Below are positions 28,159 through 51,972 of a DNA stretch of 64,000 nucleotides, piece after piece. The translations under genes were made by a program, and so were the position numbers. Under the pieces are notes generated by a model, which worked only from the letters and a program-made list of their open reading frames with translations, had not been told where the DNA came from and did not search any database. Origin of the DNA: Acorus gramineus (lineage: Eukaryota; Streptophyta; Magnoliopsida; Acorales; Acoraceae); assembly GCA_030737835.1 (NCBI GenBank), contig CM060851.1:8787129-8851128 (forward strand), written 5' to 3'. How positions within the stretch are numbered: the stretch's first letter is position 1; every line of letters begins with the position of its first letter.

Positions 28159-29279
28159 CAGTGGCGGCTCCAGGAATTTTCATAGATGGGGTCGTTAAAA
28201 AAATAAATTTAACAAAAATTTTAAAAAATATATTCTTATCATATATCATATATTTATAAAAAATATAAATTTTTCTTTGTAAAGTAAAACTACTTACATT
28301 AATACAAAAAAATAAACCATCAAAGAGAATCATTTTAGATATATGCTCTTCTTATTTTGTTATGATTATTAGGATGAAAAGTTGAGTTTTTTTTTCTTAA
28401 ACTTGAATCTGAAAGAGATTGCTTACTTCAAGACGACCTTGCTTAACACCACAATTATTTTTTTCATAGGAGAAAAATCTTGTTCTATAGTTGATTTTTT
28501 TATCCATTAAACAAAAATTTTATAAACACAAATACATAAAAAAATAAAAAATTAATCAACTGGAGACCCACACCCATCTTCCCAAAACACTCTCCGGATG
28601 GGTCCACCCCCCTCCCCTTCCCCTCACAAGCATATATTAAATTATATTTTGATACACAGACAGGTAAAGGGCTTTCAATACACTATAAATGACTGAAAAA
28701 TGGTGTAATGTTGAAGGGTCCCATACTAGCGATTTTTTATAAAATGGAGTAGTGTTTTAGTGTTTCACTATTTTTTCCTTTTCCAATGTGAGTGTTGGGT
28801 TTTTAATGGGTCAAATACTGGCCGGTTTGTTTTAAAAAAGGAAAATGTTAGACTCGGTTTTTTTACTAACCAAAACTCAAACCACACATGTTTTAATTTA
28901 TCTTTGATTTATAAACATCATCTAACGAGGTATATATTTTGATAAAAAATGTATATCTCTCTATTTCGGATTGAATGAATCCATATTTAATAAGTGTAAG
29001 AAAATTTTTAACAAGATATATACATCGTTTAATGAGGTATATGTTTCACTGGATTTCTAACGAGGTATATAAGATTGTATTTTGAACTGAGTGTAACAAC
29101 ACTCTTTAAAAAAATTTAATGGGCTAGTTTGTTTAAAAAAAGTGTAATGGGGGTCAAAATGTCAAAACTCTGGCCAAAAAAATGTGAATAAAGTATGATG
29201 GGTAGGCTGATTTGTTTTTTGTTTTTAAAATATTGATGGGTCAATTGACCCAATCCTGTGAAGAGTGGAGCCGCCGTTG
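28159..29279. mobile_element. Non-autonomous hAT element
   Basis: Ends CAGTGGCGGCTCC and GGAGCCGCCGTTG form a 13-bp terminal inverted repeat with one mismatch. The 8-bp target duplication GCTGGAAC (28151-28158 and 29280-29287) is exact, the size used by hAT transposases. 1,121 bp, AT-rich, with repeated AACGAGGTATAT-type motifs and no transposase. Confidence 0.88.
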
Positions 29280-29799: not shown

Positions 29800-31609
29800 C
29801 TACGCTTAACCCCTTGAGTTAAAATTTCGTTGACAGATGAGAAATATTATGTGAATATTCTGTTTAGTTAACCTTAACTAAAAATAAAGTATACCAAAAA
29901 ACACTTACAATTTATTAAAAATGCGACAAAAAGTCTGTCAATGATGATTTACCCTTTTAGATAGATTATAACTAGTTTTCTCCCAAGCACGATGTGCGTG
30001 TAAATAAAAAATATTTTAAAAAAACTGCCCACAATCAATACACTCATTTTTTTTCAATTAATATATGTGTGATATAATATATCATATTATATATACATAA
30101 ATAATATAATGAAAATTTCAATGATTATTAAATGAGTTTTTTACATATATATACCCCTCCACCAACCCTATATTGTAAAAATACTCTATTTGAAACTCTA
30201 AAAACAATAATATCACTTGAATGGATTTTAAAAAAATAATGTTTATGTAAAATTTAAATCTTTATTAGAATTAGAGGTGCAACTTGGATGTGTTGAACTC
30301 GATCCAACTTGAAATTTGAACGGATTTGGGTTGGAGTTTTACGTTCGGGTTCAACTTGAGCCCGAACACGAACAACCCCAACCCAATTTGGGTTGAATAA
30401 GTTAAAGAGAAAAAAGATTACAAATAAATAATATAATTTTATTTTTTCATATGGATAAGTTAAACAGATTTAAAAATTTTAATTTAAAAACTGATCAATT
30501 ATGAAAAAATATATTCAACCGAAAAACCCTAAATTCAAACTCAAATACTCATGCATAAAGATTGAATAAATTTATTCACTGTTAAGAACCCACACAAACA
30601 CATTAATAACTTATTATGAAGTCTCCATTCACCACTGGCGTCCAAACCGTGCAATCTAATTTCATTAGTAAAAACTCATCTATTCAAATAACAAATGAAT
30701 GTAAGTTCTTTTTATATATATATATATATATATATCCGAAAGCTGTTAAGATTTATTGTGAGATTTATTAAATAATAATTTGGGAGTTAATAAGAAAAAT
30801 GGGCATTTGATTAGGATATAAAATAGGTTATTAATGTTGATATATTAACCCCCCGTAATCTCGATATATCTATAAAGCCCTCATATTTCCAATTCTACCC
30901 TCCTTTAGGGTTTTTTTTTTTTTGAAATATTGGTTGCTTTCAAAGAGTTAAAAATATATATATTTGTTAATCATGGCTTAGATAACGAAATATGCCTAGA
31001 ATATTCTAATTTTGTAAAAGAATTTTTAACCGCAGAGGGTTATTTGCATTTATGGTGTGTTTACAGGGGGTTATATGGATATATCGAGATTATAGGGGGT
31101 TTTATGGATATCTGGAAGATTGCAGGGGGTTAGATGGATTTTTGCCTTTTAAATATTTTGGCAGTAGAATGTAGATTGATTTATAAAATCTAATTATCTA
31201 TTTAAAATCATAAGATAAGATTAGGAGACTAAATATTAGTTTTGAATAATAATAGACTTTAACAAATTTATTAGGGGTAAAAATGTAAAATTGTGTCACA
31301 AAGTTGAAAAACACTTTTGATTAGTAGTATATATATAGATAGAAACCCTATTCAGATGGGTAAAATCATCAATTATAGTGGGTTTTTTTTTATAATTTTA
31401 ACACATTATATGGAGTTTTCAATATACTATGTTTTCAATCATGATTAACCAAACGGAATATTCACAAACAATCATAATACGTCAGCGAAATTCAGGGGGC
31501 TATTTGAAATAATTATGTAGGTGTTTTTAAGGGGTTACATGTACTTCAGAAAAAGACAAAGGGTTATATAGATTTTAGACATTTTACCGGGGTTAAATGG
31601 ATTTTTCCC
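29800..31609. mobile_element. Second foldback Mutator-like element, split by a Helitron
   Basis: The left part (29800-29971) and right part (31340-31609) match the arms of the foldback element at 27213-27749: TTAACC with ATATTATGTGAATATTC on the left, and GATTAACCAAACGGAATATT with the GGATTTTTCCC end on the right. The outer left end is truncated. The Helitron 29972-31339 lies near the axis of the palindrome. The right arm also occurs in the array units at 36453-36643 and 41966-42159. Confidence 0.75.
29972..31339 (-). mobile_element. Non-autonomous Helitron H1
   Basis: On the minus strand it begins TCTATATATATACTACTAAT and ends with hairpin GCACATCGTGC, a 10-nt spacer and CTAG, inserted between A (29971) and T (31340). 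A TC start, a hairpin about 10 nt before CTRR, and an A-T target without duplication are the Helitron hallmarks. 1,368 bp with no Rep/helicase coding. The interior contains a short inverted repeat (ATCTCGATATATC near 30855 and GATATATCGAGAT near 31075). Confidence 0.82.
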
Positions 31610-31663
31610 TAACATATAACCTGTGTAAGCCGTGGAACGAGAATGATATATTCATATAGATGA

Positions 31664-31715
31664 TAAAATAATAATAATAACAATAATAACAACATACAAC
31701 AACAACAACACGCGG
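31664..31715. repeat. AAT/AAC trinucleotide microsatellite
   Basis: ATAATAATAATAACAATAAT followed by ACAACAACA. The same tract occurs at 36693-36735 and 42206-42251 in the array units, and an AAT version at 62863-62911 in the distal segment. Confidence 0.85.
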
Positions 31716-32067
31716 GTTCACGTGTTCCCCCATCATTTGTTAAAACCAAAAGTCATGTTTCTAAAACGTTGAAGAGTGGATCAATCCCCACCATTCACAT
31801 TGCTAAACCTATCAATAAAAAAAACAAAAAAAATTCATATGTAGGTTATTTGAAAAATATTAATCCCACTGATCCATTCGACAGTCTCCTGCCTTACTTT
31901 TTTTTTTTTTTCAGGTGATGACGTAAACAATATTTTAATATGATGACATAAATAAGATATTCTAGGAAAGTTACACATCTAATATTTTTCATTGCCAGAA
32001 ACTAAACTTTTCAATTTAAATCGTCAAAATCTAAAATCAAAGTATGACATTTCAGTTAGTAGCAGAC

Positions 32068-32147
32068 CTCCATTGGCGTAGTGGTCGAAATGCACCCCTC
32101 CCCAAGGGAGGTCACGAGTTCAAACCTTTCTTTACCCACCCAAAAAA
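32068..32147 (+). mobile_element. Short tRNA-related SINE head
   Basis: Box A-like TTGGCGTAGTGG and box B-like GAGTTCAAACC are 32-33 bp apart, with a short A-rich end (CCCAAAAAACA). The corresponding place in the next array unit (near 37135) lacks it. Only about 80 bp, with no clear target duplication. Confidence 0.55.
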
Positions 32148-32351
32148 CATCTGAACTTCCTTCCAATTATTGCTACCAATTTAAGTTGTCAAAGAGTTTG
32201 ACAAAATCTTCATCGGTCATATCCCCTCTATTTCCAAATTGAGTTTATGGATGTAAAGAAAAAATTAAAACTTTTTTTTGGTATAAAAAGATAAAATATA
32301 AAATTTGACAACATTTGTTTCTAAGCTTGACCCTGCAACAAGCTTAATTCT

Positions 32352-32426
32352 AGGCCCTGCAACAAGCTTGACCGCTGCGACAGGAATGCTCGGGCTAAGC
32401 TTGGATCAAGTACTTGACGAGGTCTG
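32352..32426 (+). pseudogene. RALF-like 3' fragment (copy R0)
   Basis: Keeps the last third of the RALF gene, from AGGCCCTGCAACAAGCTTGA to the TGA shared with intact copies. An extra G in CTCGGGCTAAG shifts the frame, and a short partial repeat of CCCTGCAACAAGCTT lies just upstream (32330-32345). No promoter or signal peptide. It marks the left edge of the RALF array; the matching point in copy R1 is 5,534 bp downstream. Confidence 0.85.
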
Positions 32427-32999
32427 ATCAGACTTAATTCTGTGAATGGAATAAAACATTGTTTAGGTTTGTGGGTTTTGTAAATAAATAAAGAAGGGCT
32501 GTTGATGATCAGCTTAATTGAACCTTCATTATTCCTTCTCTTTGATATTTGGTTGCACCTTTTTTTTTTTTTGTTTAAATCAATGATGATTTTGATTGGC
32601 AATGCTGGTATTTTGTTATTCTTTATTCCGTCCATCTATTCTGCATTGTGACTTGTGAGCCTGTGAGGGAAGAAGTGGTGTGTTAGGAATTACTTAGCAT
32701 GGCTTTGGTCTACTATTATGTTAGCACCATTGAATTTATCCGGATAGTCCGGAAAGACAAATAAAATTGTTCAAAGGTCCAGAGCCAAATAATTTAGACT
32801 CAATCATATTTATTAATCAAAACTCAGATCACACGTGTTTTTAATTTTTTAAAATATTAAATATCACCTGATGAGCATATACTTTAATTAAAAATGTATA
32901 TTGATCCATTTTGAGTTGAATGCTTTAATTTAAAAATGTATAATATTAAGAAAAATTATGTTTAAACTAAAAAAAAAAAATTTTTAAAATAATGGTGGT

Positions 33000-33108
33000 T
33001 CAGCCCATTAGGTGGATCGGCCGAGTTAGGCTGGCACGGCCTGGTAGCCCATTGGCCAGTTTCCCAAGCAGGGCGGGCCGAATCGATACGGTTCGTTTTA
33101 CACCTCTA
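33000..33108 (-). mobile_element. GC-rich terminal block of an unidentified hAT-like element
   Basis: Read on the minus strand it starts TAGAGGTGTAAAACGAACCG and is rich in GGCC/GGGC motifs, as are subterminal regions of several plant hAT families. Copies lie at about 38521-38637 and 45798-45909. The other end was not found. Confidence 0.35.
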
Positions 33109-33290
33109 TCCTTCCTAACCCTACCTTTCCTCTTTTCCTCTTCCCCTCTTCGAACCCCTCCACCTCTTCCGCCGGTCACACATCTTTCCACCTCTCCAGT
33201 TTTCTCCGTTCCCCTCTCCCTCCTTCCTCCGTCATTTGCTCCGGAAAAATGGATTACGGCGAAGGGTGAATGGTGAGAATGTGAGATTAA
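33109..33290 (+). pseudogene. CT-rich leader with short ATG frame (possible captured first exon)
   Basis: A CT-rich stretch resembling a plant 5' leader is followed by ATG at 33249, a six-codon frame MDYGEG, TGA and then GGTGAG, which could be a splice donor. Copies lie at 38779, 44173, 44219 (a local 46-bp duplication) and 46051. Gene of origin not recognised. Confidence 0.3.
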
Positions 33291-33768
33291 TGGTTTTCTT
33301 AACTAAATTGTTGATTTTTGGGTTTCGGAATTTTGAGGATAGTGGCTCAAGAATTAGTTTGTTAGGATAGACATTCTCATTCGAAAACTGTAATGTTGGT
33401 GAAAAAAATGCTTTTTAGGATTACATCGTTATTTTATTTTATTTTTGCATTATTTTTTTGTTAATAAATTATTGATGTTTGGGGATATATTTACATTATG
33501 ATTTTATTTTATTTTATTATTTTATTGGTGGGTTGTTCTTGAAGATCTATTAATATGTCATACTATTCTAATCCAAGGTTAGCAATGATATCGGGTAGCA
33601 AATATCAACATTTCCTTAAAAAAAAACATGTCATACTATTTAGGAGTACATTTATTTTATTCTATTTTAGTAAAAAGTTAGAATATCATATTATTTTATT
33701 ATATTTTTTATTGATGGGTTTTCTTAAAATATATTAATATATTATTACTTTTATTGAATTTTATATTC

Positions 33769-33796
33769 ACGCACATCGTGCGTAGGGGAAGACTAG
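33769..33796 (+). mobile_element. Helitron 3' end
   Basis: Palindrome ACGCACATCGTGCGT, then AGGGGAAGA, then CTAG with T next: a textbook Helitron 3' terminus. The 5' end was not located. The matching place in unit 2 (near 39301) is partly deleted. Confidence 0.7.
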
Positions 33797-34012
33797 TATA
33801 AGACTACCCTTAACATTATCAACAAAATTATGAGATGGATCAAATGCTAAATGCTAACTACGAGAGATTTAATTAAACATAATATTTGAATTTGCAATTT
33901 CATGAAAAAAATCGAGATGCATTTGTTTGTGTTTTTTTTTTTTTTCCTTTCTCACTTCCTTCATTATCTTTTATTCCCTCTTGGGCTATGTTTATTTTAC
34001 GATAGGTGTCAA

Positions 34013-34037
34013 CTAGTTTTCCCAATGCACAATGTGC
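34013..34037 (-). mobile_element. Helitron 3' end, opposite orientation
   Basis: On the minus strand hairpin GCACATTGTGC is followed by ATTGGGAAAA and CTAG, preceded by A on the plus strand. Same terminus type as H1. Repeated at 39526 in unit 2. A Helitron-type 5' start TCTATATTAGTGACC occurs at 34640 on the plus strand. Confidence 0.6.
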
Positions 34038-34096
34038 GTCGAAATGAAAATTCTGTTGATAGTACATATGACATGTTAAAAATATGTCGGAAAATT

Positions 34097-34597
34097 CAAA
34101 TTACATAAAATATTTATTAAATTAATTTCAAATAATAAAAATTTATACTAAAAATTTGAAAAATTCAAACTACATAAAAACAAAATTATGTGCAAGAAAT
34201 TAAGAAGGAAACAAATATATATTAATTGAGTTTCATTTGCAATTTTGTTTCTCTGATCCATTTCAAATTACATAAAATATTTATTAAATTAATTTCAAAT
34301 AATACAAATTTATACTAAAATTTTGAAAGATTCAAACTACATAAAAACAAAATTATGTGCAAAAAATTATGAAGGAAACAAATATATATTACTTGAGTTT
34401 CATTTACAATTTTATTTCTCTGATCCATTTCAAATTACATAAAATATTTATTAAATTAATTCCAAATAATACAAATTTATACTTCAAATTTGAAAAAATC
34501 AAATTACAAACAAAAAATTACGTGCAAGAAATTATGATGGAAACAAATATATATTACTTGGGTTTCATTTACAATTTTGTTTTACCGATCCATTTTG
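34097..34597. repeat. 167-bp tandem triplicate
   Basis: Units start CAAATTACATAAAATATT at 34097, 34264 and 34431, exactly 167 bp apart. Each includes AATTATGTGCAA and a GAGTTTCATTT block. The copy in unit 2 starts at 39610, 39777 and 39944. Confidence 0.88.
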
Positions 34598-35573
34598 GTT
34601 CTTTCATCCAAATCCTGAAATTAATAAGTTAGTAATCTATCTATATTAGTGACCAAAAGTGTTTTCAATTGTATTACACAATTTTACATATTTACCCCTA
34701 ATAAAATTTTTAAAGTCTATTATTATCCAACACTAATATTTAGTCTCTTAATTTTATCTTAGGATTTTAAAGATATATTGAATCAATGGTGTTGATTGTA
34801 CAATATCATCATATTTTTTGTTATTATTATTTTTATTAGATTTAGATTGAGATAATCATAGAATGATAGAACATAGATAATAAAGATGTAATTTCAGATA
34901 AATATGAGTTTCGATGTCACTTTTCATCTTCAAATAATCATTTTCTATTTCATCGGCATAAGTATATATTGAAACTCTCTTTCCAATGAGCTATTGATCA
35001 CCGCAATCAGAGTTATTGTTGAAAAATTATGATTTTTTTAAAGAATATGAAGAATATTTTAACTCTTTGTTTTTCTTTCTGTATCTACGCATAAATTGGA
35101 TAATATCATCAATATCCACCAAATAATAATTTTTTTTGTATACATACCTCTAAAAAAATCATATTTTAGCAAAATATCAATAATGATTTGTTATTTCTAA
35201 TAATATCATTCTAAATATGAGTGCAACTCGGGCGGGTTGGATCAGGTTGGAGCTCAACTCAAACCCAACTCGATGTTGGAGAAAATCAACTCGAGGTTGC
35301 ACAACTCAACCCGTCAGGTTATATTCAGGTTGGGTTCAGGTTTGATACGAGATTTTGTGCCATGAATAAAGATTATGTTCATTTTAATGTTTCTGGTTAC
35401 TGTTTTATGGTCAATGAATCCAAATCTTTATTTGGGTTGGGATATTTTGACCAATTTACGTTGGTTTTTCATTTATTCTTATATTAAATGTGTTGGATTG
35501 CTGTGGATTTTGGACTGGATTGAAGGGACACTCGCAGTAGTAATATATAGTTGAAACTAAGCTTTTTTGAAAG

Positions 35574-35952
35574 ATGGAGATCACCGATGTTTCGGATTAT
35601 GAGGCGATCGCCAAAGAGAAGCTTCCGAAGATGGTCTATGGCCCCATTCGGTAACGCAATTGGGGGTCTGATTCTGCTTTTAATTAAGAAAAAAAACTCA
35701 AACGTGTTACCGAATGGATTTTAGAAAGATAACTTAAATAAAAAGTTACTAACAGTTTTTAGCGCAAAATGATTGCTTTTTAAAAAACACAGAAAATATG
35801 CTTTCGGGAAATCAAAGTATATTTAAACCACTTTATTCAAAATCATATTTTTTGAACGTGTTTTCAAATGAGCCCTATGACTAATATGCGTCCGGAGCCG
35901 AGGACCAGTAGTCTCCCAAGGAGATCTGGAACGCATTCTCAAGGATCCTATG
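35574..35952 (+). pseudogene. Glycolate oxidase exon 1 pseudogene with MITE (unit 1)
   Basis: ATG at 35574 opens MEITDVSDYEAIAKEKLPKM then VY, the start of plant peroxisomal glycolate oxidase, the photorespiratory FMN enzyme. A 236-bp MITE interrupts after VY (35640-35875). Beyond it the frame continues D, stop, YASGAEDQ, stop, SPKEIWNAFSRIL, where functional enzymes have DYYASGAEDQW and ENRNAFSRIL. The donor after the last codons reads CTATGAGC where GT is expected. Later exons are absent from this unit. Same lesions as units 2 and 3. Confidence 0.88.
35640..35875. mobile_element. 236-bp MITE in glycolate oxidase pseudogene (unit 1)
   Basis: Terminal repeats GGCCCCATTCGGTAACGC and CGTGTTTTCAAATGAGCCC (reverse complement similar), flanked by TAT on both sides (35637-35639 and 35876-35878). 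A 3-bp duplication suggests Tourist/Harbinger type. Present at the same codon in all three units. Confidence 0.75.
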
Positions 35953-37594
35953 AGCTTCCTTCAGTTACTTCAGCATGTTTTTCTTTTGTTTGAAATCGAT
36001 GTCGTCGCATTAGATTTAGTTCAAAATTAAAAACACCTTTTAAGTTTATGTTGTTTTTTATATGAATGGGTTTAGTTTAAGATTCTTCGAATAACTTATC
36101 AGTGGAGTGACCATCCGAAGAAATCTTTTTTATTTTTCCTGTTTTATTTCATTGGGTTGAGTTTTCTCATATACTGATGGAAAGTTGATTTTGTCTCACA
36201 AAATAAAGTTTCCTTTGAAACCAAACCAATTTTCAAAATTGGCTTTTTACCTGCTTTTCGTAAAAGCTACTCTCAACCAACTTTTAATAAAAGCTACTCT
36301 GAACTAATTATTTTCATAAAAGTTGTTTTGTTTGCTTTTAGTACATGAGAATCAAAATCTGAAACAAAAATATTAAAATTTTACAAAAAAAACATGTCTG
36401 AAACTGATTATCTTAAAACTGATATTGTAAAAGCATAATCAATTTGATAGTTGGAGTTTTCAGTATATTATGTTTTCAATCATTACTAACCAAACAGAAT
36501 ATTCACAAATAATCATAATATGTCAGCGAAATTCACGGGGCTATTTGGATTAATTACATAGGTGTTTTCAAAGGGTTACATGAACTTCATAAAAGACAAA
36601 GGGTTATATGAATTTTAGACATTTCACAGGGGTGGATTTTTCCCTAACATATAACCGGTGTAAGCCATACAACGAGAATGATATAGATGATAAAATAATA
36701 ATAATAACCTACAACAACAACAAAAACAACAACAAGCGGGTTCACTTTGACAATTCACAGTGGCTCTACTTTTTGATTTTTTAGTCCAATTTTTCATGAA
36801 AACCCAATTAATTCTCTTCATTTAAGACTTTTTTTGTCCGAAAATTTAAAATCCACTGATTAAGAAATTTTAAAGATGATAGATATGGTTATAATTTTCA
36901 AAATAATATTTTTATCTACATTCCAGTTATTTGTGTTTAGTCAAATGTTTGGGCAATTTGACATATGTAACTTATCTTTTTTTTCTTTTTTTCACGTGAT
37001 GACATAAACAATATTTTAATATGGTGACATAAATAAGATATTCTAGGCAAGTTGCACTTTTAATGTTTTTTGTTGTCAGAAACTAGACTTTCCAATTTAA
37101 ATAGTCAAAATCTAAAATCAAATTATAACAATTTAAGTTAACAAAATCTGAACTTCCTATTTTTTTTTTTTTTCTTCCCCAAAACTGAACTTTCAATTTA
37201 AGATGTGAAAAGATGAACTTCCAATTAGTTGCTACCAATTTAAGTTGTCAAAAAGTTTGACAAAATCTTTCCATTGGTCATATCCCCTCTATTTCCAAAT
37301 TGAGTTTATGGGTCTAAAGATAAAATTAAAACTTTTTTTTGGTACAAAAAGATAAAATATAAAATTTGACAACATTTGTTTCCCAATATAGCCTTCTATG
37401 AAACTATAAGGAACATAATAGATCCAACACATCCGTGATCATCCGATCTTATAGATATAGTTGAAAGATAATCCATACAAAGAAATGTTAAATTTTAATT
37501 GAATCTTAATTCTAATTTTGAAATCTAAAAGAATATCTCAGTCTCATTGCTATTTTAAAATGATAAGATCAGACAATCATGTATACGTAAACCC

Positions 37595-37601
37595 TATAAA
37601 T
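37595..37601 (+). promoter_or_regulatory. TATA box of RALF copy R1
   Basis: TATAAAT lies 78 bp before the ATG, followed by a short leader with no upstream ATG. The same box is at 43099 in R2, but it is changed (TGTAAAT) in the broken copy R3. Confidence 0.65.
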
Positions 37602-37672
37602 ATCCCTCCCCCAACAAATTAACACACATATTCATCAAAAGTCAAGTGACAAGTGACACACCACCACCAACG

Positions 37673-37960
37673 ATGGCTTCTTCTTCTTCTTCCTCCTCCC
37701 GCTCGTTATCATTGGTCTTTGTCGTGTTTGCATTGCTGGCGACCGCGCTCTTCATAGGTTCAAACGGAGATGGTGACGAAGGTGGCCGCCTCGGCTACGG
37801 AGCGATTGGGCGTGATGGAACGCCGTGCAGCAAGCGACTGAACCAGTCGGCCAATTGCCGTCCTCAACCCGTGAACCCCATCACCAGGCCCTGCAACAAG
37901 CTTGACCGCTGTGACAGGAATGCTCGGCTAAGCTTGGATCAAGTACTTGACGAGGTCTGA
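37673..37960 (+). CDS. RALF-like secreted peptide R1
   Basis: 95-residue single-exon precursor of a rapid alkalinization factor, a family of extracellular peptides sensed by CrRLK1L receptor kinases (family knowledge). A serine-rich start and hydrophobic segment (LSLVFVVFALLATALFIGS, about residues 12-30) form the signal peptide. The RALF core follows: LGYGAIGRDGTPC in place of the usual YISY block, four cysteines spaced C-x9-C and C-x5-C (CSKRLNQSANC, CNKLDRC), and VNPITRPC in place of ANPYSRGC. There is no dibasic RRxL site, so it is the short type without an S1P-cleaved propeptide. A 13-residue tail NARLSLDQVLDEV after the last cysteine block is unusual, since most RALFs end there. The ATG at 37673 is preferred over an in-frame GTG. 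The protein is identical to R2. Confidence 0.87.
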   Translation: MASSSSSSSRSLSLVFVVFALLATALFIGSNGDGDEGGRLGYGAIGRDGTPCSKRLNQSANCRPQPVNPITRPCNKLDRCDRNARLSLDQVLDEV

Positions 37961-40900
37961 TCAGACTTAATTCTGTGAATGGAATAAAACATTGTTTAGG
38001 TATGTGGGTTTTGTAAATAAATAAAGAAGGGCTGTTGATGATCAGCTTAATTGAACCTTCATTATTCCTTCTCTTTGATATTTGGTTGCACCTTTTTTTT
38101 TTTTTTGTTTAAATCAATGATGATTTTGATTGGCAATGCTGGTATTTTGTTATTCTTTATTCCGTCCATCTATTCTGCATTGTGACTTGTGAGCCTGTGA
38201 GGTGAGAAGTGGTGTGTTAGGACTCACGTAGCATGGTTTTGGTCTACTATTATGTCAGCACCATTGAATTTATCCGGATAGTCCGAAAGACAAATAGAAA
38301 TTGTTCAATGGTCCAGGGCCAAATAATTTAGACTCAATCGTATTTATTAATCAAAATTCGGACCACACATTTTTTTAATTTCTTAAAATATTATACATCA
38401 CCTGATGAGCATATACTTTAATTAAAAATGTATATCGATCCATTTTGAGTTGAATGCTTTAATTTAAAAATGTATAATATTAAGAAAAATTATGTTTAAA
38501 CTAAAAAAAAAAAATTTTTAAAATAATGGTGGTCCAGCCCATTGGATCGGCCGAGTTAGGCTGGCACGGCCTGGTAGCCCATTGGCCAGTTTCCCAAGCA
38601 GGGCGGGCCGAATCGATACGGTTCGTTTTACACCTCTACCCTTCCCAACCCTACCTTCTCTCTTTCCCTCTTCCCCTCTTCGAACCCCTCCACCTCTTCC
38701 GCCGGTCACACATCTTTTCACCTCTCCAGTTTTCTCCGTTCCCCTCTCCCTCCTTCCTCCGTCATTTGCTCCGGAAAAATGGATTACGGCAAAGGGTGAA
38801 TGGTGAGAATGTGAGATTAATGGTTTTCTTAACTAAATTGTTGATTTTTGGGTTTCGGAATTTTGAGGATAGTGGCTCAAAATTTAGTTTGTTAGGATAG
38901 ACATTCTCATTCGAAAACTGTAATGTTGGTGAAAAAAATGCTTTTTAGGATTACATCGTTATTTTATTTTATTTTTGCATTATTTTTTTGTTAATAAATT
39001 ATTGATGTTTGGGGATATATTTACATTATGATTTTATTTTATTTTATTATTTTATTGGTGGGTTGTTCTTGAAGATCTATTAATATGTCATACTATTCTA
39101 ATCCAAGGTTAGCAATGATATCGGGTAGCAAATATCAACATTTCCTTAAAAAAAACATGTCATACTATTTAGTGGAGTACATTTATTTTATTCTATTTTA
39201 GTAAAAAGTTAGAATATCATATTATTTTATTATATTTTTTATTGATGGGTTTTCTTAAAATATATTAATATATTATTACTTTTATTGAATTTTATATTCA
39301 CGCACATCGTATAAGACTACCCTTAACATTATCAACAAAATTATGAGATGGATCAAATGCTAAATGCTAACTACGAGAGATTTAATTAAACATAATATTT
39401 GAATTTGCAATTTCATGAAAAAAATCGAGATGCATTTGTTTGTGTTTTTTTTTTTTTTCCTTTCTCACTTCCTTCATTATCTTTTATTCCCTCTTGGGCT
39501 ATGTTTATTTTACGATAGGTGTCAACTAGTTTTCCCAATGCACAATGTGCGTCGAAATGAAAATTCTGTTGATAGTACATATGACATGTTAAAAATATGT
39601 CGGAAAATTCAAATTACATAAAATATTTATTAAATTAATTTCAAATAATAAAAATTTATACTAAAAATTTGAAAAATTCAAACTACATAAAAACAAAATT
39701 ATGTGCAAGAAATTAAGAAGGAAACAAATATGTATTAATTGAGTTTCATTTGCAATTTTGTTTCTCTGATCCATTTCAAATTACATAAAATATTTATTAA
39801 ATTAATTTCAAATAATACAAATTTATACTAAAATTTTGAAAGATTCAAACTACATAAAAACAAAATTATGTGCAAAAAATTATGAAGGAAACAAATATAT
39901 ATTACTTGAGTTTCATTTACAATTTTATTTCTCTGATCCATTTCAAATTACATAAAATATTTATTAAATTAATTCCAAATAATACAAATTTATACTTCAA
40001 ATTTGAAAAAATCAAATTACAAACAAAAAATTACGTGCAAGAAATTATGATGGAAACAAATATATATTACTTGGGTTTCATTTACAATTTTGTTTTACCG
40101 ATCCATTTTGGTTCTTTCATCCAAATCCTTAAATTAATAAGTTAGTAATCTATCTATATTAGTGACCAAAAGTGTTTTCAATTGTGTTACACAATTTTAC
40201 ATATTTACCCCTAATAAATTTTTTAAAGTCTATTATTATCCAACACTAATATTTAGTCTCTTAATTTTATCTTAGGATTTTAAAGATATATTGAATCAAT
40301 GGTGTTGATTGTACAACATCATCATATTTTTTGTTATTATTATTTTTATTAGATTTAGATTGAGATAATCATAGAATGATAGAACATAGATAATAAAGAT
40401 GTAATTTCAGATAAATATGAGTTTCGATGTCACTTTTCATCTTCAAATAATCATTTTCTATTTCATCGGCATAAGTATATATTGAAACTCTCTTTCCAAT
40501 GAGCTATTGATCACCGCAATCAGAGTTATTGTTGAAAAATTATGATTTTTTAAAAAATATGAAGAATATTTTAATTCTTTTTTTTTTCTTTCTGTATCTA
40601 CGCATAAATTGGATAATATCATCAATATCCACCAAATAATAATTTTTTTTGTATACATACCTCTAAAAAATCATATTTTAGCAAAATATCAATAATGATT
40701 TGTTATTTCTAATAATATCATTCTAAATATGGGTGCAACTCGGACGGGTTGGATCAAGTTGGAGCTCAACTCAAACTCAACTCGATGTTGGAAAAAATCA
40801 ACTCGAGGTTGCACAACCCAACCCGTCAGGTTATATTTAGGTTGGGTTCGGGTTTGATTCGAGATTTTGTGCCATGAATAAAGATTATGTTCATTTTAAT

Positions 40901-41085
40901 GTTTCTGGTTACTGTTTTATGGTCAATGAGTCCAAATCTTTATTTGGGTTGGGATATTTTGACCAATTTACGTTGGTTTTTCATTTATTCTTATATTAAA
41001 TGTGTTGGAATGCTGTGGATTTTGGACTGGATTGAAGGGACACTCGCAGTAGTAATATATAGTTGAAACTAAGCTTTTTTGAAAG

Positions 41086-41463
41086 ATGGAGATCACCAAT
41101 GTTTCGGATTATGAGGCGATCGCCAAGGAGAAGCTTCCGAAGATGGTCTATGGCCCCATTCGGTAACGCAATTGGGGGTCTGATTCTGCTTTTAATTAAG
41201 AAAAAAAACTCAAACGTGTTACCGAATGGATTTTAGAAAGAAAACTTAAATAAAAAGTTACTAACAACTTTTAGCGCAAAATGATTACTTTTTAAAAAAC
41301 ACAGAAAATATGTTTTCGGGGAATCAAAGTATATTTAAGCCACTTTATTCAAAATCTTATTTTTTGAACGTGTTTTCAAATGGGCCCTATGACTAATATG
41401 CGTCCGGAGCCGAGGACCAGTAGTCTCCCAAGGAGATCTGGAACGCATTCTCAAGGATCCTAT
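41086..41463 (+). pseudogene. Glycolate oxidase exon 1 pseudogene with MITE (unit 2)
   Basis: Begins MEITNVSDYEAIAKEKLPKM then VY, with the 236-bp MITE at 41152-41387 and TAT on both sides, then the same two stop codons and the same lost splice donor as unit 1. The unit was therefore already dead before it was duplicated. Confidence 0.88.
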
Positions 41464-43098
41464 GAGCTTCCTTCAGTTACTTCAGCATGTTTTTCTTTTG
41501 TTTGAAATCGATGTCGTCGCATTAGATTTAGTTCAAAATTAAAAACACCTTTTAAGTTTATGTTGTTTTTTGTTTTTTATATGAATGGGTTTAGTTTAAG
41601 ATTCTTCGAATAACTTATCAGTGGAGTGACCATCCGAAGAAATCTTTTTTATTTTTCCTGTTTTATTTCATTGGGTTGAGTTTTCTCATATACTGATGGA
41701 AAGTTGATTTTGTCTCACAAAATAAAGTTTCCTTTGAAACCAAACCAATTTTCAAAATTGGCTTTTTACCTGCTTTTCGTAAAAGCTACTCTCAACCAAC
41801 TTTTAATAAAAGCTACTCTGAACTAATTATTTTCATAAAAGTTGTTTTGTTTGCTTTTAGTACATGAGAATCAAAATCTGAAACAAAAATATTAAAATTT
41901 TACAAAAAAAACAAAGAAATGTATTATCTTAAAACTGATATTGTAAAAGCATAATCAATTTGACAGTTGGAGTTTTCAGTATATTATGTTTTCAATCATT
42001 ACTAACCAAACAGAATATTCACAAATAATCATAATATGTCAGTGAAATTCAGGGGCTATTTGGATTAATTACATAGGTGTTTTCAAAGGGTTACATGAAC
42101 TTCATAAAAGACAGAGGGTTATATGAATTTTAGACATTTCACAGGGGTGGATTTTTCCCTAACATATAACCGGTGTAAGCCATACAACGAGAATGATACA
42201 GATGATAAAATAATAATAATAACCTACAACAACAACAAAAACAACAACAAGCGGGTTCACTTTGACAATTCACAGTGGCTCTACTTTTTGATTTTTTAGT
42301 CCAATTTTTCATGAAAACCCAATTAATTCTCTTCATTTAAGGCTTTTTTTGTCCGAAAATTTAAAATCCACTGATTAAGAAATTTTAAAGATGATAGATA
42401 TGGTTATAATTTTCAAAATAATATTTTTATCTACATTTCAGTTATCTGTGTTTAGTCAAATGTTTGGGCAATTTGAAATATGTAACTTATCTTTTTTTCA
42501 CATGATGACATAAACAATATTTTAATATGATGACATAAATAAGATATTCTAGGAAAGTTGCACATTTAATGTTTTTTTGTTGTCAGAAACTAGACTTTCC
42601 AATTTAAATAGTCAAAATCTAAAATCAAATTATAACAATTTAAGTTAACAAAATCTGAACTTCCTTTTTTTTTTTTTCTTCCCCAAAACTGAACTTTCAA
42701 TTTAAGATGTGAAAAGATGAACTTCCAATTAGTTGCTACCAATTTAAGTTGTCAAAAAGTTTGACAAAATCTTTCCATTGGTCATATCCCCTCTATTTCC
42801 AAATTTAGTTTACGGGTCTAAAGATAAAATTAAAACTTTTTTTTGGTACAAAAAGATAAAATATAAAATTTGACAACATTTGTTTCCCAATATAGCCTTC
42901 TATGAAACTATAAGGAACATAATAGATCCAACGTATCCGTGATCGTCCGATCTTATAGATATAGTTGAAAGATAATCCATACAAAGAAATGTTAAATTTT
43001 AATTGAATCTTAATTCTAATTTTGAAATCTAAAAGAATATCTCAGTCTCATTGCTATTTTAAAATGATAAGATCAGACAATCATGTATACGTAAATCC

Positions 43099-43105
43099 TA
43101 TAAAT
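43099..43105 (+). promoter_or_regulatory. TATA box of RALF copy R2
   Basis: TATAAAT 75 bp before the R2 start codon, in the same context as R1. Confidence 0.65.
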
Positions 43106-43173
43106 ATCCCTCCCCCAACAAATTAACACACATATTCATCAAAAGTCAAGTGACAAGTGACACACCACCAACG

Positions 43174-43461
43174 ATGGCTTCTTCTTCTTCTTCCTCCTCC
43201 CGCTCGTTATCATTGGTCTTTGTCGTGTTTGCATTGCTGGCGACCGCGCTCTTCATAGGTTCAAACGGAGACGGTGACGAAGGTGGCCGCCTCGGCTACG
43301 GAGCGATTGGGCGTGATGGAACGCCGTGCAGCAAGCGACTGAACCAGTCGGCCAATTGCCGTCCTCAACCCGTGAACCCCATCACCAGGCCCTGCAACAA
43401 GCTTGACCGCTGTGACAGGAATGCTCGGCTAAGCTTGGATCAAGTACTTGACGAGGTCTGA
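43174..43461 (+). CDS. RALF-like secreted peptide R2
   Basis: 95-residue precursor identical in protein sequence to R1. The only coding difference noticed is a silent GAT/GAC in the GDGDEGG stretch, and the leader is three bases shorter (one CAC/ACC repeat fewer). It has the same signal peptide, four-cysteine RALF core and extra carboxy tail. Promoter and downstream AATAAA motifs are shared with R1, so both copies are probably expressed alike (inference). Confidence 0.87.
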   Translation: MASSSSSSSRSLSLVFVVFALLATALFIGSNGDGDEGGRLGYGAIGRDGTPCSKRLNQSANCRPQPVNPITRPCNKLDRCDRNARLSLDQVLDEV

Positions 43462-45349
43462 TCAGACTTAATTCTGTGAATGGAATAAAACATTGTTTAG
43501 GTATGTGGGTTTTGTAAATAAATAAAGAAGGGCTGTTGATGATCAGCTTAATTGAACCTTCATTATTCCTTCTCTTTGATATTTGGTTGCACCTTTTTTT
43601 TTTTTTGTTTAAATCAATGATGATTTTGATTGGCAATGCTGGTATTTTGTTATTCTTTATTCCGTCCATCTATTCTGCATTGTGACTTGTGAGCCTGTGA
43701 GGTGAGAAGTGGTGTGTTAGGACTCACGTAGCATGGTTTTGGTCTACTATTATGTCAGCACCATTGAATTTATCCGGATAGTCCGAAAGACAAATAGAAA
43801 TTGTTCAATGGTCCAGGGCCAAATAATTTAGACTCAATCGTATTTATTAATCAAAACTCGGACCACACATTTTTTTAATTTCTTAAAATATTAAACATCA
43901 CCTGATGAGGATATACTTTAATTAAAAATGTATATCGATCCATTTCGAATTTAATTAATCCTTTTCGAGTTGAATTCTTTAATTTAAAAATGTATAATAT
44001 TAAGAACCATATCGATGCGGCCCGACCTGCTACCTTTCCCAACCCTACCTTCTCTCTTTCCCTCTCCCCCTCTCTGAACACCTCCACCTCTTCCGCCGGT
44101 CACCCATCTTTCCACCTCTCCAGTTTTCTCCGTTCCCCTCTCCCTCCTTCCTCTGTCATTTGCTTCGGAAAAATGGATTACGGCAAAGGGTGAATGCTCC
44201 GTCATTTGCTCCGGAAAAATGGATTACGGCAAAGGGTGAATGGTGAGAATGTGAGATTAATGGTTTTCTTAACTAAATTGTTGATTTTTGGGTTTCGGAA
44301 TTTTGAGGATAGTGGCTCAAAAATTAGTTTGTTAGGATAGACATTCTCATTCGAAAACTGTATTGTAGGTGAAAAAAATGTTTTTTAGGATTACATCGTT
44401 ATTTTATTTTATTTTTGTATTATTTTTTTGTTAATAAATTATTGATGTTTGGGGATATATTTACATTATTAAGATATTCTAGGCAAGTTGCACTTCTAAT
44501 GTTTTTGGTTGCCAGAAACTAGACTTTCCAATTTAAATCGTCAAAATCTAAAATCAAATTATGACAATTTAAGTTAATAAAATCTGAACTTCCTATTTTT
44601 TTTTTTTTTCTTCCCCAAAACTGAACTTTCAATTTAAGATGTGAAAAGATGAACTTCCAATTAGTTGCTACCAATTTAAGTTGTCAAAAAGTTTGACAAA
44701 ATATTTCCATCGGTCATATCCCCTCTATTTCCAAATTGAGTTTATGGATCTAAAGATAAAATTAAAACTTTTTTTTGGTACAAAAAGATAAAACATAAAA
44801 TTTGAGAACATTTGTTTCCCAATACAACTTTCTATGAAACTATAAGGAACAGAATAAATCCAACGCATATGTGATCGTCCGATCTTATAGATATAGCTGA
44901 AAGAAAATCCAAATAAAGAAATGTTAATTTTTAATTGAATCTTAATTCTAATTTTGAAATCTAAAAGAATATTTCAGTCTCATTGACATTTTAAAATGAT
45001 AAGATCAAACAGTCACGAATACGTAGACCCCTGTAAATATCCCTCCCCCAACAAATTAACACACACGTATTCATCAAAAGTCAAGTGACAAGTGACACAC
45101 CACCACCAACGATGGCTTCTTCTTCTTCTTCCTCCTCCCGCTCGTTATCATCGGTCTTTGTCGGGTTTGCATTGCTGGCGACCGCGCTCTTCATAGGTTC
45201 AAACGAAGACGGTGACGAAGGTGGCCGCCTCGGCTACGGAGCGATTGGGCGAGATGGAACGCCATGCAGCAAGCGACTGAACTAGTCGGCCAACTGCCGT
45301 CCTCAACCCCCGTGAACCCCATCACCAGGCCCTGCAACAAGCTTGACCG
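43462..45349. repeat. RALF array, unit 3 (internally deleted)
   Basis: Follows units 1 and 2 to about 44465 (TTTACATTATT), then jumps to sequence matching the RALF upstream region (AAGATATTCTAGGCAAGTTG; compare 37035 onwards). About 4.5 kb is missing, including the glycolate oxidase exon, Helitron ends and 167-bp triplicate. It ends with the broken RALF copy R3. Confidence 0.85.
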
Positions 45350-45352
45350 CTG
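45112..45352 (+). pseudogene. RALF-like pseudogene R3
   Basis: Opens like R1/R2 (MASSSSSSSRSLSSVFVGFA) with amino-acid changes in the signal peptide. It reaches GRDGTPCSKRLN and then TAG at 45283-45285, before the second cysteine. Downstream homology continues out of frame (two extra C in CTCAACCCCCGTG), and the end of the gene is deleted: CTTGACCGCTG joins TTGATGATCAGC of the 3' flank. The TATA box is altered to TGTAAAT. Not functional. Confidence 0.9.
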
Positions 45353-47160
45353 TTGATGATCAGCTTAATTGAACCTTCATTATTCCTTTTCTTTGATATT
45401 TTGTTGCACCTTTTTTTTTTAAATCAATGATGATTTGGATTGGCAATGCTGGTATTTTGTTATTCTTTATTCCGTCCATCTATTCTGCCTTGTGACTTGT
45501 GAGCCTGTGAGGGAAGAAGTGGTGTGTTAGGAATTACTTAGCATGGCTTTGGTCCACTATTATGTCAGCACCATTGAATTTATCCGGATAGTCCGGAAAG
45601 ACAAATGGAAATCATTCAATGGTCCAGGGCCAAATAATTTATACTCAGTCATATTTATTAATCAAAACTCGGACCACACATTTTTTTAATTTCTTAAAAT
45701 ATTAAACATCACCTGATGAGGATATACTTTAATTAAAAATGTATAATATTAAGAAAAATTATGTTTAAACTAAAAAAAAATAATTTTTAAAATAATGGTG
45801 GTTCAGCCCATTAGGTGGATCGGCCGAGTTAGGCTGGCATGGCTTGGTAGCTCATTGGCCAGTTTCCCTAGTAGGTCGGCCGAATTGATACGGTTCGTTT
45901 TACACCTCTATCCTTCCTAACCCTACCTTTCCTCTTTTCCTCTTCCCCTCTTCGAACCCCTCCACCTCTTCCGCCGCTCACCCATCTTTCCTCCTCTCCA
46001 GTTTTCTCCGTTCCCCTCTCCCTCCTTCCTACGTCGTTTGCCCCGGAAAAATGGATTACGGCAAAGGGTGGATGGTGAGAATGTGAGATTAATGGTTTTC
46101 TTAACTAAATTGTTTATTTTTGGGTTTTGGATTTTCGAGGATAGTGGCTCAAAAATTAGTTTGTTAGGATAGACTGACCAATTTATGGTTGTTTTTCATT
46201 TATTCTAATATTAAATTTGTTGGAATACCGTGGATTTTGCAATGGATTGAAGGGGACACTCATAGTAGTAATATATAGTTGAAGCTAAGCTTTTTTGAAA
46301 GATGGAGATCACCAATGTTTCGGAGTATGAGGCGATCGCCAAGGAGAAGCTTCCGAAGATGGTCTATGGCCCCATTTGGTAACGCAATTGGGGGGTGTGA
46401 TTCTGCTTTTAATTAAGCAAAAAACTCAAACGTGTTACCGAATGGATTTCAGAAAGCTAGCTTAAATAAAATGTGACTAACAACTTTTAGTACAAAATGA
46501 TTGTTTTTTAAAAAGCACAGAAAATAGGCTTTCGGGGAGTCAAAGTCTATTTAAACCACTTTGTTCAAAATCTTATTTTTCAAACGTGTTTCCAAACGGG
46601 CCCTATAACTAATATGCGTCCGGAGCTGAGGACCAGTATTCTCCCAAGGAGAACCGGAACGCATTCTCGAGGATCCTATGAGCTTCCTTCAGTTACTTCA
46701 GCATGTCTTTCTTTTGTTTGAAATCGATGTCGTCGCATTAGATTTAGTTCAAAATTAAAAACACCTTTTAAGTTTATGTTGTTTTTTATATGAATGGGTT
46801 TGGTTTAAGATTCTTCGAATAAATTATCAGTGGAGTGACCATATGAAGATATCTTTTTTGTTTTTACTGTTTTATTTCATTGGGTTGAGTTTTCTCATAT
46901 ATTGATGGAAAGTTGATTTTGTCTCACAAAATAAAGTTTCTTTTGAAACCAAACCAATTTTCAAAATTGGCTTTTTACCTGTTTTTCGTAAAAGCTGCTC
47001 TCAACCAACTTTTAATAAAAGCTACTCTGAACTAATTATTTTCATAAGAGTTGTTTTGTTTGCTTTTAGTACATGAGAATCAAAATCTGAAACCGAAAGA
47101 TGAAATTTTACAAAAAAAACTTGTTTGAAACTGATTATCTTAAAACCGACATTGTAAAAG
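45353..47160. repeat. RALF array, partial unit 4
   Basis: RALF 3' flank, the GC-rich block and the leader-like ATG frame, then a jump near 46175 (GTTAGGATAGACTGACCAATTT) to the glycolate oxidase region. More divergent from units 1 and 2 than those are from each other, so probably an older copy. Confidence 0.82.
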
Positions 47161-48018
47161 CATAATCTGTTTGACAGTTGGTTCCAAGTGGTACACAAGG
47201 TCCTATGGTGATTGATCTCAATTGCCTCAACATGTTTTGTAGAGAACTTTTTTTTCTTGAAGTTCTACATAATTGTATTTGATTTCTCTGGGTTGTATCT
47301 GAATCTCTTACAGCTCTTTTCATCTTCATATATATTACACAAATATGTTCTTCATGATTAAAAAACAGATTTTCAAGTTGTATAAGTTGACATATGGGAC
47401 GATGGATCTAGATAATTACAGGCCATAAAGTGTGATCATTGATATTATTAGAACCAAAATTTCTTCATATGAAGTGGTCATTTTGATATGAAAATACCAT
47501 CTTTGTTGAATTGTGGTCCTATATCACGCTTCACTGAATTGGACAGTTTACTTAATCCATATATAGAGAGGTTAATCAACAATTTGGTTTAATATTATTT
47601 TCTCAATCTGTTTCTCTGGTTTTTTATTTAGGTTTTGTCCTCGCATTCTGATCGATGTGACCAAGATAAATATGGCAACCACTGTTTTGGGATACAAGAC
47701 TGCTGTGCAAAAAATGGCTCCCCCTGATGGTATGCCACTCTAGCTTGGATTTTTGGTGTCATATTTTAAAGACTGATTTATATGCTAGAACATAATGCAA
47801 GAGATATTTAGTCTTTTGAGGATCAATTCACTGTAAAATCTTATAATTATATTTGAAGTATATCAAACGTGCTTCATTTTGATATTGCACATGGTTCACC
47901 TGATAAAATAGAAATTGTTTGGTTTGCGTTCTCAGTTCCCTTCGACTAAAGTTGAGCTTCTACGTCATAGGAGAGTATGCAACTGCAAGGGCAGCATCAG
48001 CCACAAGCACAATTATGG
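46302..48018 (+). pseudogene. Glycolate oxidase pseudogene with three exon remnants
   Basis: Exon 1 (46302 to about 46680) starts MEITNVSEYEAIAKEKLPKM then VY, with the shared 236-bp MITE at 46368-46603. Exon 2 (47632-47729) reads [20 protein letters not shown] then [13 protein letters not shown]; functional enzymes have about a dozen extra residues (SMPIMVAPTAM) between YKT and QKMA, so there is an in-frame deletion. Exon 3 (from 47971) reads EYATARAASATSTIMDL and then loses similarity. Exons 2 and 3 keep plausible splice sites. It is the least reduced of the three copies and shows the parent gene was spliced, not retrocopied. The catalytic part of the enzyme is absent. Confidence 0.88.
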
Positions 48019-48506
48019 ATCTCATCCATTCTTGTCTGTCCCATGTGGGATTGACACGTGATCAAAATTGTCATAGAACTCACATGTTACACATGTGAGG
48101 TGACACATGCTAGTCTTATATTGAGAATTGATAATAATAGATGAGATTCAACATTAACTGAATCATATCTCTTGTGTAGTTTGATCAAATAAAATTTCTG
48201 AAAATTGCGAGCAGTTGCATCCGTCTCACTCTGTACAAGTGGATGCTTATTGATATGGAAATTTGCATCCACTCATAATTTGTGCAACATATCTTTGAAA
48301 GGTGAAACAGTTTTATAGGGTTGGTGGAGGTATATATATGTAAAATATATATACTTATCCTTATCTCTATCGATTAATTTTTTAATAAATTGTTATCCTT
48401 AAAACTCTTCTATTATTTAGTCTTTCATGATTTTCTCTCTCAACTGGATATATTTAAACAAAAAAAACTCAATTTTCTTAGGGTAATCAGAAACAAATCT
48501 TCCTTG
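48019..48506. other. Spacer after glycolate oxidase pseudogene
   Basis: AT-rich sequence with no recognisable gene or repeat. Homology to MULE E4 begins abruptly at about 48507. Confidence 0.4.
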
Positions 48507-50611
48507 ATTTTTATTTTTATGGATTTGATTAATATATAGCTGATTAATATGTAATTGCTTATTGTTGGCATTTTGAAGACATTTTATGAATTTTCTATGC
48601 AGTTCTGAGTAGCATGTAGATCATATTTGTTCATTTGGATTTTCTAATACATTATTGTATCTTCATTGATAACATGTGGTTGATGTTCTTTTTTTTCACC
48701 AGGCAATGATGGTGATTATGTGGACACATGTGAAGACTCAATTCATTTGGATGACATCAATTATCCATGTTCTGTGAAAACCAGTTTGTTGAAGGAATTA
48801 TTTGTTGTGGCTGATCAGCAAAATGTAGAAGAGATTGTCTGAATGTCTGAATGCCTTTGGCTCAACTCTATTGCTGCAAATGTTTCAAATATTATGTGCA
48901 CTGTAGATCTGTACTCGGGATAGTATGCCCAGTTTCTTCTTTGTTCAGCAACTCCGTCTTTTTTTGCTTTTGCATATTTTTACAACATCCAGATGCAGTT
49001 AAAATGCCTAATACAGTATCATACACATGACATTGTCTTTTCTATACGAACAGTTGACAAACACTGTCTTTTTGTGTATTAAGATACATGTGTATCTTAA
49101 AAATGAAATCAAGAGTTTCTAAACAAATATAAGAGAGATCAAAACTATATATACCATCTATATTTCAGATACATATGAACAGCCAGATTGCACACAAATA
49201 AATGCTATCAAATGTTTGTTTTTTCAGATATAGCCAAAGGATTTAATCATGTTTTATATAACAATTTCAGATACAATTGATTCAGATACATACAACTTTT
49301 ACAAGAGCATTAATCTATTTTCATCAAGGGATTTACAGAAACAGTTGAGTAATCCAAAATATAAGATTGAAGTTTTTAATACACAACACATTCTGATTCA
49401 TGAGTACTTGTTAATAGCTTGTAATGTGACTATTAGATTCTCTGTTGCTACATAATTGCTTCAGATTCATATTTATTTGATAACAGGTTTTCAGATACAT
49501 GTACAGTTGATTAAGATAAATGGATTGTTTACAAAAAAAATAAGATATATTCATCAAACAATGCATGTTAATTATCAAAGATAATATAATAATTCATGAT
49601 CTACATGCATATGATATTTCTAACATTTCATTTGGCTACTATTAATTGCTCAGTTTACCAGATTTTATTTCACTGAATCATGAAACAATTGCACATTATA
49701 TAAAATTTTCAGATACATGTATTTGACTTATCTTTTTGTTTCATCAGAAGCGAAATATGCACACGAGAAAACCCTAAACAATCGAAAAATGTAATTTCAT
49801 TTTTCCTTTAATCTTGATACACTGGCAGACGAAGACAATGTATCAGAAAACAATCTCATAATATATTAGAGATTAATGACAATGTATCTTGATACACATT
49901 TTTTTTTATTCAGATGCATGTATCTGAATCATTGATTTCAAATCATTTTTTTTTATTTCAGATGCAAGTATTTGAAACAATAATTCTTCAAATAGATATC
50001 AGATACAATCAGATTAACAGGAGCCGAGATAATCGAAGAAAATCGTTTTATATATTATTTTAAAAATAAAAGTATTCGTCTAATAAGAAGTGCAAAAAAA
50101 AAAAAGTGACCTCTTTATCGGATACAAATGACCTGTTTTTTTTTGTCAAAAAAAAAAAAAAATACAAAGCGACAGTTAAATTTCGATTGGCGGAAGAAAT
50201 CTATCCCTTTTTATTCGCCATTGTTGATGGTTTGTTGGGGAAGAGAATTAGATGGGTTGAAATCTTGATCACCTAATTTTTTTTCTTTTTTTCTTTCATT
50301 CGTATGGCTTTGCCCAAATCGGAACCCTAACATTCAAATTTTTTTGGGGAGAGGAATTAATGGTGCCCCCATTTGTGGGATTCGGTTACTTTGGAGAGAG
50401 GAATTAATGGTGCCCCCATTTGTGAGATTCGGTTACGATTTTAATGAGGATATTAGCTAGTTGGAGGTTATTTTTAAAATTTATAAGAAGGGTAGTTTTG
50501 TCATTGACATTTTGGTGGTTTGAAAAAGTCAAATAGGAAACCAATAGGAGAGTGCCACCTATTGGGGCTCACAAATGGGGCTTAATTTATGGGGCCTAGG
50601 TAGCAACACTG
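48507..50611 (+). mobile_element. Right part of Mutator-like element E6
   Basis: Closely matches E4 from about 24490 to its right end, including the exon-like frame (48705-48842) and the AGATACATGTGTATCT palindromes. It ends GGGGCCTAGGTAGCAACACTG. The left part and left terminal repeat are missing, so no target duplication can be scored. A short local duplication (AGAGGAATTAATGGTGCCCC twice near 50350-50420) is specific to this copy. Confidence 0.85.
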
Positions 50612-51540: not shown

Positions 51541-51783
51541 AGAAATTATAATTAACTTCTGTGTTATTAATCAATGTATCACTTCACTGGGACTGAATAA
51601 ACGAAAACATAGATAGATTGAGTAAAGTGAGAGAACTCATAATTTAATAAATAAATAGAACAGAAAAAGAAAAAAAATTGTTCTGCAGTACATATCACTG
51701 TCTAGTAGCCTTATATTATTCCTTTATCAGATGACTAATTTCTCTCTGATGGATTCAAGTTCAATAAATCGGGACTTAGACAC

Positions 51784-51847
51784 GGTTACTGCTCTCCAAC
51801 GACTACGGGAAGTGACATGTACAACGTATCCATTCTGAAACACACTT
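51784..51847 (+). pseudogene. Fragment of RAD51D exon 9 (3' part)
   Basis: GGTTACTGCTCTCCAACGAC, then GACATGTACAACGTATCCAT and CTGAAACACAC match the end of exon 9 ([20 protein letters not shown]). The 5' part is absent. It is joined directly to intron 7-like sequence, so exon 8 and most of intron 8 were lost. Confidence 0.85.
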
Positions 51848-51972
51848 ATTTCTAATAATAGCTAATGTTCTTCTCTGTCAAACCTATTTTTTGCGCACAA
51901 CTAGAAAGAGTAAAAAATTACAAGTGTCATTGGCTTATCTTACCTATGCTACTGCCGTTTGTTGGTCAACAC

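Follow-up and report, generated by a model that had tools for sequence, protein, structure and literature searches.

How does a plant genome come to carry two genes for exactly the same small peptide between two broken copies of that gene? The question is raised by an array of four head-to-tail copies of a gene for a small secreted signalling peptide in Acorus gramineus, of which the inner pair (R1 and R2) encodes the same peptide and the outer pair (R0 and R3) is broken. The array lies in the 64,000-nucleotide stretch analysed here, which we call the window (C5:8787129-8851128, in an assembly of 398.6 Mb and 137 contigs). The likely answer, in our judgement, is a founding duplication at a microhomology, later recombination and homogenisation between the repeats and decay of the outer copies, the whole amounting to a plain gene-dosage duplication.

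R1 and R2 both match the Pfam RALF family (PF05498) with 32.9 bits over residues 40-82, against a curated cut-off of 22 bits, and solved relatives are found in the RALF4 chains of the PDB (E 0.009-0.01). The leader of the precursor is hydrophobic (Kyte-Doolittle 2.4 over residues 11-30, window of 15 residues), and there are four cysteines, C52, C62, C74 and C80, spaced C-9-C and C-5-C as in the aligned RALF4. An RRXL cleavage site is absent from the whole 95-aa sequence, and so is the YISY motif, RLGY standing at the equivalent place. In the accessible text of PMC5258720, RRXL and YISY mark the true RALFs of clades I-III, so by the sequence criteria of Campbell and Turner given there the product is RALF-related and clade IV-like and not a typical RALF. 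The initial annotation of these loci as RALF peptide genes is thus upheld at the level of the Pfam family but not in the sense of a typical RALF. According to the same text, clade IV peptides resemble the R1/R2 product in their short precursor (clade mean 88 residues, 95 aa here), in the lack of RRXL, in a variant YISY and in the cysteine framework. They differ in that many of them are without the second cysteine, whereas the R1/R2 product keeps all four, and in the latter CDR is followed by a C-terminal tail of 13 residues. In Arabidopsis, the expression of clade IV genes is described there as nearly confined to inflorescences. A tree of the RALFs of this genome, built from 25 distinct rows without reference clade IV rows, puts R1 on a branch of 1.95 with weak support (26 rows were collected, L021 was dropped as identical to L020, and R2 was left out as identical to R1). 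Judged by their uninterrupted frames and their TATA-like boxes, both genes most likely work from near-identical promoters and yield one and the same secreted peptide with four cysteines.

R1 and R2 are 2 of the 27 RALF family matches in the genome. A genome protein search with R1 gave 13 rows, comprising 5 in the array, 1 for a dead C-terminal fragment at C4:1519950-1520196 and 7 for other RALFs. The best-scoring other full-length relative, at C1:596337-596585, is 40% identical over most of the length and scores 24.5 bits for Pfam RALF, above the cut-off. No other close intact copy was found in the genome, either with the DNA query 36980-38560 (40 of 986 candidates scored) or with the R1 protein (13 of 13 scored). 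Functional copies elsewhere were considered and dropped, the searches having returned the array locus, the dead C4 fragment, short dispersed-repeat matches and distant RALFs.

The extent and layout of the array follow from self-comparison (Table 1). Its left end at 31411 aligns to 36452 and its right end at 47181 aligns to 36454, which corrects the narrower span of 32336..45352 in the initial annotation. That annotation had also placed all four copies on a 5.5-kb unit, and this fits R1 and R2, which are 5501 bp apart (5516 bp from junction to junction), but not R2 and R3, whose spacing is only 1938 bp because about 3.5 kb has been deleted between them. Inspected letter by letter, the scar of this deletion is without clear microhomology.

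Table 1. Features of the RALF-related array and its passengers, in window positions.
Feature	Position	Strand	Evidence and remarks
Whole array	31411..47181	.	self-BLAST ends and junction letters; units A (R0), B (R1), C (R2) and D (R3), some internally deleted
Filler at R0 deletion	32321..32351	.	words of 9-15 bases also in RALF gene and its 3' side
R0, C-terminal coding scrap	32352..32427	+	self-BLAST, alignment; extra G; lacks promoter and 5' part of coding region
Satellite, 3 x 167 bp, R0-R1 interval	34095..34595	.	repeat analysis
Dispersed repeat, ~0.7 kb	34635..35346	.	genome search, query 1336-2046
Glycolate oxidase 5' fragment, unit A	35340..36454	+	split by ~235-bp insert
Founding duplication junction, first copy, AGTTGG/AGTTTTC	36452	.	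self-BLAST and junction letters
TATA-like box of R1, CTATAAATAT	37594..37603	+	sequence; putative functional role
R1, intact RALF-related gene, 95 aa	37673..37960	+	ORF, Pfam, genome protein search
Satellite, 3 x 167 bp, R1-R2 interval	39608..40108	.	repeat analysis
Glycolate oxidase 5' fragment, unit B	40852..41970	+	sequence comparison
Founding duplication junction, second copy, AGTTGG/AGTTTTC	41968	.	self-BLAST and junction letters
TATA-like box of R2, CTATAAATAT	43098..43107	+	sequence; putative functional role
R2, intact RALF-related gene, product identical to that of R1 (95 aa)	43174..43461	+	ORF, Pfam, genome protein search
Substitution-free stretch vs R1, 584 bp	43273..43856	.	remaining coding bases plus 395 bp of noncoding DNA on the 3' side; single 1-base indel
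Scar of the deletion that joined units C and D	44455..44469	.	self-BLAST, junction letters; ~3.5 kb missing, junction included
R3 pseudogene	45112..45353	+	stop, 2-base frameshifting insertion, 123-bp 3' deletion, altered TATA-like box
Rest of dead glycolate oxidase copy	46163..48313	+	within unit D up to 47181, with later exons beyond the array

The right flank of the array reads AGTTGG/TTCC, the left flank ATATGG/AGTTTTC and the internal junctions AGTTGG/AGTTTTC, with TGG as a 3-bp microhomology common to the flanks and the internal junction. Since both array ends map to one internal junction with TGG, there was one founding tandem duplication, which was copied into later units. The junction is observed directly; the pathway would have been a single end-joining event at TGG that duplicated a 5.5-kb block in tandem. 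The junction is near the end of a ~0.2-kb dispersed repeat, ~10 bp inside it (query ~283-492 in the genome search, junction at 482).

The duplicated block would have held a RALF-related gene and, next to it, a dead 5' stretch of a glycolate oxidase gene. In unit A, the start of this fragment matches glycolate oxidase chains (E 5e-6), and later exons of the dead copy lie beyond the array at 47612-48023. Compared with the gene at C1:23.63 Mb, the dead copy shows 87-92% identity in its main blocks, which include introns, and 81% in a short upstream block. In units A, B and D the first coding stretch of the fragment is interrupted at one common position by a ~235-bp insert that the C1 gene lacks, so the breakage of the glycolate oxidase copy most likely predates the array. 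Spread among the units by conversion is an alternative way to a common insert. A working glycolate oxidase in the array was rejected, as the fragments are broken and better-preserved exons are present at C1:6.13 and C1:23.63 Mb.

The outer copies had been annotated as a fragment (R0) and a pseudogene (R3), and the letters of both are those of remnants. All that R0 keeps of the gene is its final ~75 bases, ~0.5 kb with the promoter and most of the coding region being replaced by ~31 bases of filler. The longest word common to this filler and the RALF gene or its 3' side is 15 bases, a length reached in 0 of 2000 shuffles. In R3, a CAG codon has become the stop TAG, there are three amino-acid changes besides, the 123-bp deletion lies at GCTGT microhomology, and the TATA-like box (45031) reads CTGTAAATAT in place of the CTATAAATAT of R1 and R2. 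Deletions with microhomology or filler thus broke both outer copies, and such scars are typical of end joining, which we infer to be the pathway here.

The similarity of the R1 and R2 repeats, by comparison, is beyond chance. In the alignment of 32352-38486 with 37886-44006, whose edges include some older flank, 98 of the 6089 sites compared are substituted (1.6%) and 18 gap runs occur; in the inner part (38471-43940) the figure is 67 of 5459 sites (1.2%). The satellites of the two intervals differ at 1 of 501 bases. These counts agree with the near-identical flanks, satellites included, that had been reported from a first look at the sequence. The same 95 residues had been reported for both genes, and the ORF translations are indeed identical; a silent GAT/GAC site, T/C at 37771/43272, is confirmed as the sole coding difference. 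In the 5' leader the two genes are further set apart by a 3-bp indel. Upstream of the gene R1 and R2 differ by 1.5%, as against 7.8-9.1% for R3 and 18.9-19.0% for R0. R3 is 4.3-9.1% from the R1/R2 units, the R0 upstream region and immediate 3' flank are at 6.3-19.0%, the glycolate oxidase part of unit D is 7.3-7.4% diverged from units A and B, and the left end of the array is 9.9-10.6% diverged. Judged by these divergences, R1 and R2 are a recent duplication and the outer copies are older, so that the proposal of a young array suits the R1/R2 step (inner divergence 1.2%) but not the outer copies (4.3-19.0% from R1/R2). Dated with 6.5e-9 substitutions per site and year, the inner part would be very roughly ~1 million years old.

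The inner differences are also clustered (variance/mean 2.64, 0 of 5000 shuffles). The longest substitution-free inner stretch, of 846 compared columns (38883-39732; 5 of 5000 shuffles), is noncoding and extends into the satellite, and the second and third measure 584 and 523 (0 of 5000 shuffles each). The second crosses from coding sequence into 395 bp of noncoding DNA, and homogenisation therefore accounts for the identity of the peptides no less well than selection does. We read the R1/R2 identity as mainly homogenisation, with selection possible. Recombination between the repeats would have added units and homogenised tracts after the founding event, and its latest step would have created R1 and R2. 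Allelic mosaics can also give clustered divergence.

R1 and R2 could instead be kept the same by selection, either for a larger amount of a single ligand or for its exact sequence. Both frames and both TATA-like boxes are intact, the single change is silent, and purifying selection on the coding region is possible, as its 288 bases hold 1 difference and the rate of the whole alignment predicts 4.8 (P 0.046). At the inner-unit rate, however, 3.7 are expected (P 0.12), identical tracts span noncoding DNA and satellite so that homogenisation alone suffices, and R0 and R3 were allowed to die; we therefore consider selection as the keeper of identity rather unlikely. The death of R0, R3 and the fragment at C4:1.52 Mb, together with the low identity of the best-scoring full-length relative, could also be taken to mean that this peptide lineage is being discarded and that R1 and R2 are themselves heading for loss. 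Against this, both inner frames are intact, with four cysteines, hydrophobic leader and TATA-like box, and we regard such a course as improbable. The array would be a simple duplication for gene dosage, and nothing so far points to a division of function.

A different kind of doubt concerns the assembly, in which two alleles of one unit could have been threaded in series through an older repeat, leaving the plant with R0, one working gene and R3. The R1/R2 divergence of 1.2-1.6% is within the range of blocks of contig C118 against C5:8.49 Mb, which are possibly alleles (93-100% identity, longest block 98.0%), although C118 also matches C5:20.3 Mb at ~98%; from these blocks, a mis-threaded pair of alleles is conceivable for the inner duplication. 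A second haplotype of the gene-bearing DNA, which would have allowed a direct comparison, was not found in the DNA search (40 of 986 candidates scored) or the protein search (13 of 13 scored). R0 and R3, for their part, diverge too much to be alleles. The window is without any N, and the substitutions and gap runs counted above separate the aligned repeats. The unit boundary keeps the phase of the older repeat, which random contig ends would not do, although a repeat-graph error could give the same. The in-phase boundary and the lack of N favour a real duplication; false duplication of the inner unit is unlikely, and we put little weight on the threading of alleles.

Variation in copy number between individuals and a changed peptide dosage, as suggested in the initial annotation, are plausible for repeats that lie in phase. 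A stronger form of this idea, in which the in-phase 5.5-kb units go on recombining and copies are gained, lost and overwritten, so that individuals differ in gene number and the peptide stays fixed, seems to us possible but doubtful. Should the species prove variable in copy number, ligand dosage in RALF-type signalling could be approached through this locus.

Tandem duplication has long been noted as a source of RALF genes (PMC5258720, in the text accessible to us), and tandem RALF arrays with putative pseudogenes are already known from Arabidopsis. The array AT2G19020-AT2G19060 (Cao and Shi 2012, as described in the available portion of PMC13219399) resembles ours in having several tandem RALF genes with putative pseudogenes among them, AT2G19020, AT2G19040 and AT2G19045 being so called from expression. 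It differs from the Acorus array, as far as that description goes, in that the latter has two protein-identical members, a glycolate oxidase fragment with satellites and a readable founding junction. In Rosaceae, tandem duplication is likewise one source of RALF genes, and the available portion of PMC7073784 names four pairs and does not describe an array with two broken outer copies. Literature on RALF duplication, copy number, conversion and pan-genomes, searched by topic without the species name, gave no account of the Acorus locus, nor did the accessible parts of PMC2869330 and PMC5557327. As a gene duplication the array is ordinary, and its history is unusually legible. It is a clear record of the birth and decay of a small-peptide array, with its junction, its passenger fragment, end-joining scars outside and clustered identity inside, and it illustrates that identical paralogous peptides need not imply selection for identity.

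A transposon carrying the RALF gene was considered and dropped: repeats adjoin the gene, but no enclosing terminal repeats were noticed in the course of the comparisons above. The ~0.7-kb dispersed repeat of unit A has scored copies on at least 14 contigs besides C5, among the 40 of 1025 first-look candidates that were scored.

Further RALF loci lie elsewhere in the same assembly, both on the contig that holds the window (C5) and on another contig, C118 (Table). The C118 cluster is 93-100% identical in parts to the cluster at C5:8.49 Mb and about 98% identical to that at C5:20.3 Mb, and because it matches both C5 clusters, comparison of the sequences suggests two possible readings of it, a retained haplotype and a third copy. 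Sequences of about 200 bp, related to the insert found in the glycolate oxidase copies (the dead 5' gene fragments of array units A, B, and D), occur near RALF loci at C5:8.49 Mb, at C5:20.29 Mb, and on C118. The 1.1-kb repeat in the window is 87% identical both to DNA adjoining a RALF remnant at C5:8.49 Mb and to DNA on C118.

Self-comparison of the window showed that the left and right flanks of the RALF array have many blocks in common, at about 74-96% identity and in partly shuffled order. They may be repeats related to one another, or may stem from an older segmental duplication.

Several features lie to the left of these blocks. The GC-rich exon, which we take to resemble a sulfate transporter at its C-terminal end, had no match in a Pfam search. 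Another set of exons presumably resembles a RAD51 paralogue; the one exon of this set that was tested, 9945-10103, scored 19.4 bits against Pfam Rad51, under the cut-off of 22, and its top PDB match outside RecA was RAD51 homolog 4 (E 0.00016). A U12 gene and a tandem-repeat ORF were also observed.

Positions of features in the window and of RALF clusters elsewhere in the assembly
Feature	Position	Strand	Detail
Tandem repeat	3137-3469		~7 copies of 42 bp, within repetitive ORF of 131 aa
GC-rich exon	5816-6154	+	
U12 minor spliceosomal snRNA gene	8809-8967	-	84.7 bits vs gathering score 53
RAD51-like exons	about 9300-12000	+	
Left flank blocks	15158-26554		
1.1-kb repeat	28159-29248		
Glycolate oxidase insert	35640-35875, 41152-41387, 46368-46603		~235 bp, first coding stretch
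Right flank blocks	48507-56990		
RALF cluster	C5:8.49-8.51 Mb		loci L017, L020
RALF cluster	C5:20.24-20.31 Mb		loci L011, L014, L022-L024
RALF cluster	G000:C118		loci L015, L018, L021
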